A stretch of 33,316 nt of DNA from a virus. Shown here one piece after another: positions 2,355 to 15,135 of this stretch (position 1 is the stretch's first letter; each line of letters begins with the position of its first letter). The notes under the pieces were generated by a model that saw only the letters and a list, made by a program, of their open reading frames with translations, searched no databases and had not been told where the DNA came from. The stretch spans positions 1 to 33,316 of IMG/VR virus record IMGVR_UViG_3300032560_000077. The stretch is one strand, 5' to 3'. A program made the position numbers and the translations under genes.

Positions 2355-2370
2355 CAATCAAAAATAAGTT

Positions 2371-3249
2371 ATGAAATTTCTTCACACAACGCTTGATGCA
2401 CTAAAATTGCAATTGGAGGCCGACAAGCACGCACAATTGGAATACAGCGATAACGTTTGCAAAAAACAGGTAGAGGGTCTCAATAAAAAAATTGCTTCTT
2501 GGTTCTTAAAAGAATTGGGAATCAGTAACGAGATCCATTTTTCCAGGGAAAATTTAAGGCTCATAGTAATACCGGGCACTTCTGTGGAAATTTACCTCAG
2601 AATTCCTTGGAGGGATTACGAAAAGGATACCGTAAAACCGAAAATCGAACTGAATTGGTACGGTTCAAGTTGCCGCGTGTGAGAGGACAAGCACACCCAG
2701 TATTTGGCCCTGTTGGGAAAAATCGCCCCGCACCTTCAAAAAATTGAGGACGAGTGCCGTCTGTGGTATTTGGAGTACGAGGGGTACAGAAAGGGATTGG
2801 TTCCTTTCTCCACTAAAGTGCGTGAGACAGAAAACGCAATACGCGACACTGAAAGGGCCATAAAGGCACAGGACATCGAATTGTACAAGAGGGTGGGGTT
2901 CAAGTGCGATTTGAAAAACGACACGGACACACGGAGAAATTACGAAATTGAGGGAAGTCCTTACGAATTTAAGGAGTACAAAAAGCACATTAAGTTGTAC
3001 TACGGTTACGGTAAGCACGATTACATTCAAATCAATTCGTTTGAAATACTGATGGATTTGAAGCGGGGAAAATTGAGAATCAAATACAAGAACGAATACC
3101 ATGGTCAGACCGAGGAATCGTTTTCCACGGTGGACGTGACCCCTAAATTTTTCGTACCGTTCATTCAAGAAGTTTACGATTTGCAAACTTGCGGCGCCGA
3201 CGAAAAGAGGAAGCGGGAAATTTTAAGGTCGGAAATGTACAACAAGTAA
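2371..3249 (+). pseudogene. Gene of unknown function interrupted by in-frame TGA
   Basis: One continuous frame of 292 codons broken by a TGA at 2680-2682. The 103-residue first part and the long second part are in the same phase, and the sequence across the stop (SSCRV, stop, EDKHTQYLALLGK) reads as coding, so this is probably one gene. The protein is charged, with a helical middle (about residues 108-170) and no recognised domain. It is the first gene behind promoter copy A. The stop could be a nonsense mutation, a recoded codon or a sequence error. A restart would have to use TTG near 2704. Confidence 0.6.
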
Positions 3250-3691
3250 GAATTTAGTTCTTTGAATAAAAAATATTAACGATCCGGGCCGGGCTCACAT
3301 TCCTGGGCTGAGGGGTCCGGTACCAGGCCCCCTCGGAAACTAGGGAGTTAACGGATCGTTATTTTTAATGCATCGCAACTCACGTAGAAATGAAGACTTC
3401 TTAATAAAAAGGGTAGGACAGAACCTTAGCCTGCGAGTAAGTAAAAAAGTTGGGGAGCAGCTGTCTAACACATAGCTGTCTTTAAATAACCCTTGAAGCT
3501 ATTAAGATGCGAAACTACCTGATTATTTCCCTGTAAGTGGGTACCGAACCTGAAATAGTGGTAGCGAGTAGGGCACCCATAATAATAATTTAATCAGCTC
3601 CCAAGGGTGAGCAGTTACGTTAAGAAAGACTAACGTAGGTACCCCCCGTTTGAGGGTGCCAGCTTTAAAGCGTAACTGAATGCAGAGGGAC
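3250..3691 (+). ncRNA. Large structured non-coding RNA candidate
   Basis: About 440 bases without a plausible gene, followed at once by a tRNA-like gene. Long complementary segments are visible: 3277-3286 with 3352-3361 (10 perfect pairs); 3310-3315 with 3329-3334; loop 3323-3327 with 3302-3306 (possible pseudoknot); 3409-3414 with 3489-3494; 3497-3505 with 3590-3599 (one bulge); 3515-3519 with 3560-3564; 3525-3529 with 3552-3556; 3572-3578 with 3654-3660; 3612-3619 with 3671-3678. Some are mutually exclusive (3617-3622 can also pair with 3631-3636, and 3539-3545 with 3638-3644). I did not find tmRNA, RNase P, group I or group II hallmarks. GOLLD and ROOL RNAs are known large phage-associated RNAs often found near tRNAs; membership here is only a hypothesis. 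Exact ends are unknown. Confidence 0.6.
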
Positions 3692-3800
3692 GGTCAGATG
3701 GCGGAATTGGTAGACGCACTGGGGAGATTAAACTTGGAAACATTTGTTAATCTTAATAGTTAATCCTCTTTATTTACGGGTTCGAATCCTGTTCTGACTA
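3692..3800 (+). tRNA. Leu-type tRNA-like gene with oversized centre
   Basis: The acceptor arm (3692-3698 with 3793-3799), TG at 8-9, the D arm GCGGAATTGGTAGACGC typical of tRNA-Leu, and the T arm ACGGG-TTCGAAT-CCTGT are all intact, with discriminator A at 3800. CCA is not encoded. The centre (3719-3775) is 57 bases, about 20 longer than a normal anticodon plus long variable arm. No canonical 5-bp, 7-base anticodon arm is obvious. GATTAA (3726-3731) can pair with TTAATC at 3747-3752 or at 3760-3765, and GGGGA (3721-3725) with TCCTC (3764-3768). A TAA anticodon (Leu) can be read at 3729-3731, but only with a weak stem. It may be an unusual tRNA, one with an insertion, or the tRNA-like end of the upstream RNA. 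Confidence 0.55.
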
Positions 3801-3853
3801 CAAATACAAAACAAGAAATAGAAGACATTTTTAACCATCAAAAAAAGTAAACA

Positions 3854-4366
3854 ATGAAAAAAATAGTTTTGAGCATCGGTCTGATCATGACCGTTTTATC
3901 CGTAGCAGTATCGCAAACCGTCGATAGTGCCAAATTAAAAATTGACAGTACAGTAAAATTACAAACGGTGGCGCTACCCGATTCAGCAAAGTTGACAGCA
4001 TACATGGTCTATTCGGACATCAAATCAAAGATTGAGGGCTTAGGCGCTGGATTAAAAATCGGTGCTGAACACATTTATTCTGTGTTTGTCAGACAACAAT
4101 TGGTAAATTCCATTGTGTACTGCTCGTTTGCTATAGTATCATTTTTGACTCTATCATCATTTTTCAGAGGAGCCAAAAGAAAGGACGAACCTTGGAGTGA
4201 TGAAAGTGGTGGTCCTACTAGTGTTGGTATTTTTAGAGTGATACAGATGATAATTGGAATAATCATGTTCATTCTCGTTCTCATATTTTCAAGGGACATC
4301 ATAACAGGCTTTGTCAATCCGGAGTATGGCGCCATAAAAGAAATAATTGGATTCATAAAACAATAA
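3854..4366 (+). CDS. secreted or membrane protein with two C-terminal membrane helices
   Basis: A 170-residue protein. It starts with a signal-peptide-like segment (about 1-20, possible cleavage near SQ at 20-21), then a polar region to about 80, a first membrane helix at about 84-104, a basic/acidic loop (FRGAKRKDEPW) and a second helix at about 126-146. The leader is TCAAAAAAAGTAAACA before the ATG. No family is recognised. It could be an envelope-modifying or lysis-associated protein. It is the first gene after the tRNA-like element. Confidence 0.6.
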   Translation: MKKIVLSIGLIMTVLSVAVSQTVDSAKLKIDSTVKLQTVALPDSAKLTAYMVYSDIKSKIEGLGAGLKIGAEHIYSVFVRQQLVNSIVYCSFAIVSFLTLSSFFRGAKRKDEPWSDESGGPTSVGIFRVIQMIIGIIMFILVLIFSRDIITGFVNPEYGAIKEIIGFIKQ

Positions 4367-4378
4367 TTGTGTTTTTAA

Positions 4379-5017
4379 ATGAAAATAAAATTAAAATTAA
4401 GGGAAGGTCAAAGTGTGTGGTTCACTAGCGACAGTCACTACCACCATCCGAACATTTGTTCGGCGACCACCAAGTGGATTAATCCAGTGACTATAAGAGA
4501 GTTTAAATCTTTGGAGCACATGAACGCTACGATTGTTGAAAACATCAACGAATTCGTGGGGCAGGATGACATACTGTTTCACTTGGGGGATTGGTCTTTT
4601 GGGGGGTTCGACAAGACCAGAGAATTCAGGGACAGGTTGGTGTGCAACAACATTCATTTGGTCCTTGGAAATCACGACGATCACATAGAAAAAAACAAGG
4701 ACGGTATAAGAAGTTTGTTCGCTTCCGTTAATGAATACGTTGAATTGGAAGTTAACTACCCCTGGTTGGGCTCCGTAATTCACAATTTCGTTCTCATGCA
4801 CTTTCCGATAGCGAGTTGGAATCACTTGACTAAGGGGCACATGCACCTTCACGGTCACTTGCACCTCAAGAAAAATGTTAGGGCGAATAAGGGAAAAATG
4901 ATGGACGTTGGTGTAGACGGAAACGACATGTACCCAATCGGTTTAAAAGAAGTGGTGTCCATTCTTGGAAACAGACCTCTACAGGGAATGTTTGAATTCG
5001 ATCACCACAAAAAATAA
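4379..5017 (+). CDS. calcineurin-like metallophosphoesterase
   Basis: A 212-residue protein carrying the ordered metal-binding motifs of the metallophosphoesterase superfamily: D-x-H as SDSHYHH (residues 17-23), GD as GDWSFGG (about 71-77), GNHD as GNHDDH (about 97-102) and a terminal GHMHLHGHLH (about 153-162). Such enzymes hydrolyse phosphomono- or diesters using two metal ions. Length and motif spacing match the small single-domain phage and bacterial members. The substrate is unknown; the nearby RNA ligase makes nucleic-acid end processing one possibility (inference). Confidence 0.85.
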   Translation: MKIKLKLREGQSVWFTSDSHYHHPNICSATTKWINPVTIREFKSLEHMNATIVENINEFVGQDDILFHLGDWSFGGFDKTREFRDRLVCNNIHLVLGNHDDHIEKNKDGIRSLFASVNEYVELEVNYPWLGSVIHNFVLMHFPIASWNHLTKGHMHLHGHLHLKKNVRANKGKMMDVGVDGNDMYPIGLKEVVSILGNRPLQGMFEFDHHKK

Positions 5018-5888: not shown

Positions 5889-7040
5889 ATGGAAAACGTT
5901 AATAGTTGCTGCTTTGTAGCGAAAATAAGTGAATTAAAACCCATAGAGGGTGCCGACATGATCGAAATGGCGATCATTGAGGGTTGGAATTGCATAACCC
6001 AAAAGGGTAATTACAAATCGGGGGATTTGGTGGGTTGCGCGACTACGGACGCGGTGATACCCGAAGAATTGGCGGAAAAAATGAATGTGACCGGTTATCT
6101 AAGAAAGGGAAACCGAGTTAGAACGGTCAAATTGAGGGGAGTTTACTCTGAGTGCTTGATAATTCCAATGTCGTATGTACCGAATTCGCAGAGTTTCAAA
6201 GAGGGTTCTGATCTCATGAAAGCCCTTGGCGTATTTAAGTACGAACCTCCTGTTAAAAACATTCAATTGACATCAGGAAAGAAAATAAGATACCACGAAA
6301 ATCCAAATTTTTTGGTGTATTACAAATTTCCAAACATTAAGAATGTGCCTGGAATGTTCACCAAAGAGGACGAAGTTCAAATTACCAGAAAATTGCACGG
6401 TACTAATGCAAGGTACGGCATAGTGAAAAAAACAAAGTTGTCGTTCTTGGACAGAATAAAGAAATTCCTGTACAAATACGTTAATCACACGCCCGAATCG
6501 TGGAAGTTTGTGGATTACGATTTTGTGGTTGGATCCCACAACGTGGAAAAGGGTTCTGATTCTCAAGGATTCTACGATACCAACGTGTGGTTCGATGTTG
6601 CCAAAAAATACAGTTTGAAGGAAAAACTTTGGAACTATGTAATGTTGTTGGAAGATGAGGGTTTGCTGGGCTCTGGCTTCGTCATTTACGGAGAGATATA
6701 CGGTCCAGGAATTCAGGCCAATTACGATTACGGTTTGAAAGAAATAGAATTTGCTGTGTTTGATACTTGGTTTAACGGGGAATACTTGGATGTGTACGAT
6801 ACTGCATTCATAGTTGATTTCATATTGAATTTGCCTTTAGTGCCGGTTCTTTATACGGGACCGTGGAGTCAAGAAGTGCAGGACAAGTTTCTATTGAATA
6901 ACTTTGTTGAGGGCACAAAAGTACCCCACGAGGGAATAGTGATTAAACATATTTCCGGTGCTAGGGAAAAAGTGGCGAAGGTCATAAATCCTCAGTACGC
7001 GGTATTTTCCGAAAAGAACAACGTTGGGGATTCACACTAA
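5889..7040 (+). CDS. RNA ligase with N-terminal OB-like module (Rnl5-like)
   Basis: A 383-residue ATP-dependent RNA ligase. The nucleotidyltransferase motifs are all present: motif I RKLHGTN with the nucleotidyl lysine at about residue 168; VGSHN; motif III/IIIa FVIYGEIYGPGIQ followed by EFAVFD; motif IV HEGIVIK; motif V KVINPQY. Residues 1 to about 110 (FVAKISELKPIEGADMIEMA) match the tRNA-synthetase-like OB module found before the ligase domain in Deinococcus radiodurans RNA ligase, the type member of Rnl5, which seals nicks having a 3'-OH RNA end. The likely role is repair of nicked RNA, perhaps host tRNA cleaved as an antiphage defence (inference). No end-healing kinase is seen in the window. 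Confidence 0.85.
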   Translation: MENVNSCCFVAKISELKPIEGADMIEMAIIEGWNCITQKGNYKSGDLVGCATTDAVIPEELAEKMNVTGYLRKGNRVRTVKLRGVYSECLIIPMSYVPNSQSFKEGSDLMKALGVFKYEPPVKNIQLTSGKKIRYHENPNFLVYYKFPNIKNVPGMFTKEDEVQITRKLHGTNARYGIVKKTKLSFLDRIKKFLYKYVNHTPESWKFVDYDFVVGSHNVEKGSDSQGFYDTNVWFDVAKKYSLKEKLWNYVMLLEDEGLLGSGFVIYGEIYGPGIQANYDYGLKEIEFAVFDTWFNGEYLDVYDTAFIVDFILNLPLVPVLYTGPWSQEVQDKFLLNNFVEGTKVPHEGIVIKHISGAREKVAKVINPQYAVFSEKNNVGDSH

Positions 7041-15077: not shown

Positions 15078-15135
15078 AGCGGGATAGCTCAATTGGTAGA
15101 GCTCATCATTGGAGGTTCGAATCCTTCTCCTGCCA
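15078..15135 (+). tRNA. Truncated tRNA lacking the anticodon arm
   Basis: Acceptor (15078-15084 with 15128-15134, one mismatch at the first pair), TA at 8-9, D arm GCTC-AATTGGTA-GAGC, and T arm GGAGG-TTCGAAT-CCTTC are all present with discriminator A at 15135. Between the D arm and the T stem only T plus CATCATT remain, so the anticodon arm and variable loop (about 15-20 bases) are missing. It cannot decode. The flanking GAGCTCATCA resembles the 5' side of a Met/Ile-type (CAT anticodon) arm, suggesting an internal deletion. It may be a tRNA relic, an RNase P decoy, or an assembly deletion. Confidence 0.6.

Follow-up and report, generated by a model that had tools for sequence, protein, structure and literature searches.

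GOLLD (RF02032) and ROOL are large structured phage RNAs of unknown function that often lie near tRNA islands, as PMC12286853 describes them. The DNA analyzed here (the window) is a complete IMG/VR record of 33,316 bases, in which a preliminary description had noticed a structured RNA candidate at 3250-3691 running into a Leu-type tRNA-like gene. Contigs with relatives that share the window's phosphoesterase-like gene (4379-5017) reach 287 kb, which makes it probable that the window is one piece of a phage with a large genome. The upstream open reading frame stops at 3249, the next starts at 3854, and no convincing reading frame was found in 3250-3853; the region is therefore non-coding, as had been claimed, and no gene covering it speaks against an RNA. 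The upstream gene itself (2368-3249) is open only with readthrough of an in-frame TGA (2680-2682), and could be a broken gene or a case of recoding.

Like GOLLD and ROOL, the locus carries a large structured phage RNA near tRNA-type genes. Unlike them, the family described below has no Rfam match, a much smaller constant core and swappable arms, and no description of such arms was found for GOLLD or ROOL in the consulted text of PMC12286853. A permissive cmscan of 3150-3950 against Rfam (E up to 10) returned only tRNA and noise, with nothing but tRNA below E = 1, and the covariance models of RF02032 and ROOL had no hit in the region at E up to 10. The Rfam group I intron models did not match the region, and neither RF00023 nor ARAGORN called a tmRNA in the window, in agreement with the preliminary description, which had seen no hallmarks of either. 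A scan of 17 homologous loci with Rfam found tRNA matches only. The size, the phage origin and the nearness to tRNA-like genes do recall GOLLD and ROOL, and a relative of the window (L004) has a true GOLLD at 714-1229 (278.6 bits), directly followed by a tRNA-Gly-like sequence with an extra D-loop hairpin, a layout that parallels that of the window. Given the results of the Rfam scans, however, we give almost no weight to a divergent GOLLD, ROOL or other Rfam family, and of the two options offered at the outset, a new class ranks above a divergent GOLLD or ROOL.

Homologues of the RNA in viral contigs

The folding energy of the region is not unusual (z = -1.35 for 3250-3805 and -0.66 for 3366-3691, relative to shuffled sequences), so a lone sequence could neither reveal the structure nor test the stems that had been proposed. 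Blastn of the region against phage records gave no match. When 3250-3691 was compared by blastn with 50 records of relatives, the best match was one of 18 nt in the L117 record, which on reading was extended into a common motif. The other matches of the region among relatives were mostly tiny, and L002 and L003 (99.96-99.98% identical over the compared stretch) were set aside as uninformative homologues. A degenerate pattern of the motif occurs in 109 viral contigs, and the reversed pattern, used as a control, in none; the P6 stem is extended by at least 3 bp in 102 of 110 pattern matches. A second anchor pattern, for the type B domain, occurs in 61 contigs, and the two patterns together give 132 loci (about 130 viral loci), among which are the window itself and a small number of overlapping pieces.

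The window is 84% identical to L242 over 116 nt (E = 7e-28). R2, a type A model from which the window was left out, finds the window at 3586-3691 (34.5 bits, E = 6.6e-8), a match that carries P6 and the conserved motifs, the real 5' strands of P1 and P2 lying further upstream. The window has the P1-P2-P6 core with CCCAAGG and TGCAGAGG as well as the P3-P4-P5 domain of type B, and stands as a row in the type B alignment (A3). Thus, 3366-3690 of the window is in a large RNA family that is absent from Rfam 15. Within the collections searched, the family was shown to be restricted to viruses, and a search of the phylum to which a Chitinophagaceae MAG belongs (395 genomes) gave no match. The family consensus matched none of the 50,697 phage records by blastn, and the R2 hit in Lbo-JY46, a cultured Leptolyngbya phage, lies within a coding sequence and is spurious. 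In one element-bearing contig (L183), the terminase has 34-41% identity to the terminases of Cellulophaga phages phi17:2 and phi4:1 and of Lbo-JY46. Positions 6000-8650 of L221 are largely free of coding sequence and hold an island of RNAs: two or more of type B, one reduced type A RNA and another variant.

Constant core and hypervariable arms

Type A RNAs (about 90-120 nt) consist of P1, P2 and P6, and type B RNAs, to which the window belongs (Table 1), have in addition a domain of P3, P4 and P5 within P2. In the type A alignment, 97.6% of the cells are paired, 12 of the 19 pairs changed on both sides, and the covariation is 0.352, versus 0.134 after shuffling. The type B alignment, with the window as its first row, used sequences with shortened arms and tests the core only, arms excluded; here 91.9% of the cells are paired and 18 of the 36 pairs changed on both sides, the counts for P5 being lowered by a one-column shift in about 10 rows. 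None of 500 shuffles reached the observed double-sided change in types A and B. Core motifs that formed part of the search patterns are necessarily conserved among the matches. The alignments show that the constant core is a three-way junction of P1, P2 and P6 with strong covariation. Among the core pairs, GU far outnumbers AC (8 versus 0 and 15 versus 4), which points to an RNA of this strand.

Table 1. Positions of the RNA features in the window
Feature	Position	Strand	Remarks
Terminator-like strong hairpin	3277-3362	+	10-bp outer stem, then T-rich TTATTTTTAA; MFE -42.4 kcal/mol, 86 nt
Type B modular RNA: conserved core with HV1, HV2, HV3	3366-3690	+	about 130 viral loci; covariation
P1, 5' strand TGCAT	3369-3373, with 3680-3684	+	fifth pair CG, changed to UA in 6 of the 40 type B rows
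P2, 5' strand CTCAC	3379-3383, with 3607-3611	+	5 of 5 pairs with double-sided changes, both types
P3, 5' strand GTAG	3384-3387, with 3515-3518 (CTAC)	+	paired in all 160 cells; third pair GC (29 rows) or AU (11 rows)
P4 stem and arm HV1	3400-3506 (stem 3400-3405/3501-3506; HV1 3406-3500)	+	hypervariable, exchangeable arm
Proposed H-type pseudoknot in HV2	3529-3579 (S1 3529-3532/3570-3573; S2 3538-3542/3575-3579)	+	
P5 stem and arm HV2	3519-3597 (stem 3519-3525/3591-3597; HV2 3526-3590)	+	81% identity with HV2 of L242; HV1 and HV3 at background
Joining motif CTCCCAAGG	3598-3606	+	invariant columns in A3; CCCAAGG in search pattern or row selection, partly conserved by construction
P6 stem and arm HV3	3612-3678 (stem 3612-3619/3671-3678; HV3 3620-3670)	+	double-sided changes in 6 of the 9 P6 pairs
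3' tail (family AGAGGG; window GAGGGA)	3685-3690 (AGAGGG 3684-3689)	+	near-invariant in alignments A2 and A3
Leu-type tRNA-like without anticodon arm	3692-3800	+	RF00005 35.5 bits; model R1 81.7 bits (window among the rows of R1)
tRNA-like, acceptor	3692-3698/3793-3799	+	
tRNA-like, D stem	3701-3703/3715-3717	+	
tRNA-like, variable centre	3718-3775	+	
tRNA-like, T arm	3776-3792	+	
tRNA-like, discriminator A	3800	+	

The preliminary description had proposed an Infernal search of Rfam, which matched only tRNA in the region, and a search for covariation in relatives, which found homologues whose core stems covary. Its large structured phage RNA next to a tRNA-like sequence is supported by this comparative evidence, and its boundaries and most of its stems have to be corrected: the true extent is 3366-3690, with the 3' end 1-2 nt upstream of the tRNA-like sequence. 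The stem 3612-3619/3671-3678 is real and covaries as P6, and P1-P5 were absent from the list. Segments 3277-3286 and 3352-3361 can pair, but within a separate hairpin upstream of the conserved RNA, the homologues starting at TAATGCA, and the supposed pseudoknot 3302-3306/3323-3327 falls inside that same hairpin. Segments 3572-3578 and 3654-3660 are complementary, yet their pairing would join two independently swapped arms and compete with a pseudoknot stem of the homologues, and is thus probably due to chance.

P4, P5 and P6 each bear one hypervariable arm (HV1, HV2 and HV3, respectively). Among type B RNAs, 15 of the 18 arm-sharing pairs have just one arm in common; the common arm is 91-100% identical and the remaining arms 44-60% (background medians 48-54%). 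L271 and L295 share HV1 (97%; HV2 47%, HV3 56%), L268 and L274 share HV2 (100%; HV1 46%, HV3 56%), and L261 and L302 share HV3 (100%; HV1 49%, HV2 55%), while in the window and L242 the related arm is HV2 (81%; HV1 51%, HV3 48%). Arms also change position: HV3 of L243 resembles HV2 of L273 and L296 (90% over 42 nt), an arm that a third RNA, in L221, shares with L273 (100% over 46 nt), and HV3 of L255 resembles HV2 of L207 (93% over 43 nt). Arm modules occur outside the scaffold in L183, L240, L303 and L280, with stand-alone copies of the HV2 module of L231 in L240 and L303 and of the HV1 module of L242 in L183. In L300, P4 bears a grafted tRNA elbow, whose acceptor stem is at the same time the P4 stem; this links the modular RNA with the tRNA-like family. 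Taken together, the comparisons show that arms have been swapped independently, between RNAs and between positions.

For HV2, a few sequences suggest an H-type pseudoknot, which we put forward as a proposal. Compensating variants of S1 and S2 occur in the window, L242 and L280, and S1 is weak in L314; the compensating stem variants, read from the HV2 homologues in L242, L280, L314 and L315, are CCCT/AGGG, GCTCT/AGAGC and TACT/AGTG, and TGGGT/ACCCA, CAGGT/ACCTG and CGGGT/ACCCG. Examined for antisense matches within the window, the window's arms were no more complementary to its remaining sequence than shuffled sequences were.

The presence of the same arm at differing positions and at stand-alone sites (L240, L303 and L183) could also mean, by analogy with the double-hairpin elements of fungal mitochondria, that the arms are mobile hairpin elements in tolerant loops of an ordinary structural RNA and of tRNAs, their diversity being selfish. 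However, arms are not repeated in the same locus within the loci examined, except for one partial case; they are confined to the same three stems, and some show compensating changes. It appears rather unlikely that mobile hairpins explain the arms. The exchange pattern is what would be expected if the arms were selected units, though neutral or selfish hairpins may also account for it.

The tRNA-like RNA and the genomic neighbourhood

The match to RF00005 establishes the tRNA-like neighbour, and its Leu-type acceptor, D and T arms are as had been described; it is not a normal tRNA-Leu, because the anticodon arm with its 7-nt loop is missing. It shares with tRNA-Leu these three arms, the GG of the D loop and the TTCGAA of the T loop (fixed by the search pattern), and differs from it in having no anticodon arm, with a centre of 58-88 nt among the matches listed. 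The spacing from GGCGGAA to GGTTCGAATCC is 72 nt, and ARAGORN called no tRNA at the window's tRNA-like. The replacement of the anticodon arm by another domain between tRNA-like ends is also seen in tmRNA (RF00023). Unlike tmRNA, which has no match in the window, the tRNA-like RNA keeps a D stem, and an unsystematic look identified no tag reading frame; some phages bearing tRNA-likes have separate tmRNAs.

A long-centre pattern gave, in viral contigs, at least 86 matches with a 7-nt acceptor (at least 6 pairs) and a mostly perfect T stem, the acceptor being AGTCAGG in 49 of 86 among the matches listed. Changes on both sides occur in every one of the 7 acceptor pairs and in 3 of the 5 pairs of the T stem, and the centres are unalignable, with no common fold. 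The covariance model of the tRNA-like RNA gave as many as 16 hits in one phage genome; some hits form arrays next to full tRNA sets, and ordinary tRNAs are among the lower-scoring ones. Among 84,980 species of bacteria and archaea, a stricter pattern found only 3 contigs, all short MAG contigs. Judged by these matches, the tRNA-like family is virus-borne, widespread and often multi-copy, with a variable centre. Three pairs (L145/L143, L027/L109 and L111/L117) have the same centre on differing acceptor stems, which suggests that centre and scaffold recombine here too. An antisense role of the centres was considered and rejected, since against their own locus only a few scored slightly above shuffled sequences.

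Several further RNAs and a gene were noted. A second tRNA-like sequence in the window (15078-15135, 58 nt; RF00005 39.8 bits) has acceptor, D and T arms, but only a few nucleotides are left of its anticodon arm, and L020, L050, L065, L081, L133 and L146 have tRNA-likes whose D loop contains an additional hairpin or an insert. The window encodes an RNA ligase at 5889-7040 (phrog_968, 4.2e-60), which is of interest beside tRNA-like RNAs.

A tRNA-like sequence lies within a few nucleotides 3' of AGAGGG in only two loci, the window and L227, and in L242 it lies 5' of the modular RNA; the coupling of the two is therefore not general. A small hairpin with a compensating stem, TGACAGC-N-GGAAAGAC-N-GC, stands a few nucleotides before tRNA-likes or modular RNAs in 12 distinct cases (L139, L273, L301, L242, L142, L145, L192, L225, L053 and L130). 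In 88 of the 117 elements, a same-strand reading frame of at least 60 aa follows within 600 nt (median distance 136 nt), as might be expected of a cis-acting leader or riboswitch-like control of the next gene in which the variable loops are unimportant. However, the downstream genes are diverse, with no dominant family (largest cluster 7), and the lack of a single neighbouring gene argues against cis-control of one gene. Tandem copies stand in non-coding islands such as that of L221, and in the window the tRNA-like sequence intervenes. We regard a cis-acting leader as quite unlikely.

Y RNAs bear tRNA-like modules, and bacterial YrlA, which works with Ro60, resembles the present RNAs as a non-coding RNA that joins a tRNA-like module to another module. 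The modular RNA might accordingly be a phage Y RNA with a Ro60-like protein as partner, and a Ro-like protein (DUF2828 and DUF7788, with a vWA-like DVSGSM motif) is encoded in 8 element loci (L161, L167, L196, L201, L210, L238, L276 and L277), adjoining the element in some. Unlike what such a pairing would require, the Ro-like protein is found in just 2 of the 50 records searched, and a Pfam TROVE match in 1 of 50; a general partnership of Ro protein and Y RNA was rejected on these counts, and a phage Y RNA seems to us very improbable.

Proposed scaffold function and its meaning

Weighing these readings, we think it probable that the RNA at 3366-3690 of the window represents a new non-coding RNA family of phages, whose members act in trans as a scaffold with a fixed core and exchangeable binding arms. 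In the window, one precursor transcript would span the modular RNA and the tRNA-like RNA, and RNase P could plausibly release the 3' end of the modular RNA by cleaving 5' of the tRNA-like at about 3691/3692, the product being a stable modular RNA that ends just past AGAGGG. A common partner or a tertiary fold would hold the core constant, and each arm may be a self-contained binding module, similar to an aptamer, a decoy or an antisense RNA, that acts in trans on a target of the host or of a competitor, perhaps on host systems. An arm swap by recombination would then give new targets with the scaffold unchanged. More tentatively, phages could share a combinatorial RNA toolkit in which two constant RNAs, the three-way junction and the tRNA-like without an anticodon arm, are scaffolds for plug-in arms, each of them binding a target of the host or of a competitor, and in which the arms pass between phages as tail-fibre domains do.

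Domain shuffling is familiar in proteins. To our knowledge, and judging from open-access literature covered mainly by titles and abstracts, a natural RNA that keeps its core while arms are swapped freely at several positions is not a familiar design, although it may have been described before. It appears that uncultivated phages trade RNA arms like spare parts, and that this is new. The family is common in these phages, yet it is absent from Rfam 15 and unmatched by blastn in the phage records searched, and has thus been overlooked so far. If the arms do bind, phage evolution would have supplied a collection of natural RNA ligands, probably directed at host factors, and the scaffold would be a ready-made display platform.
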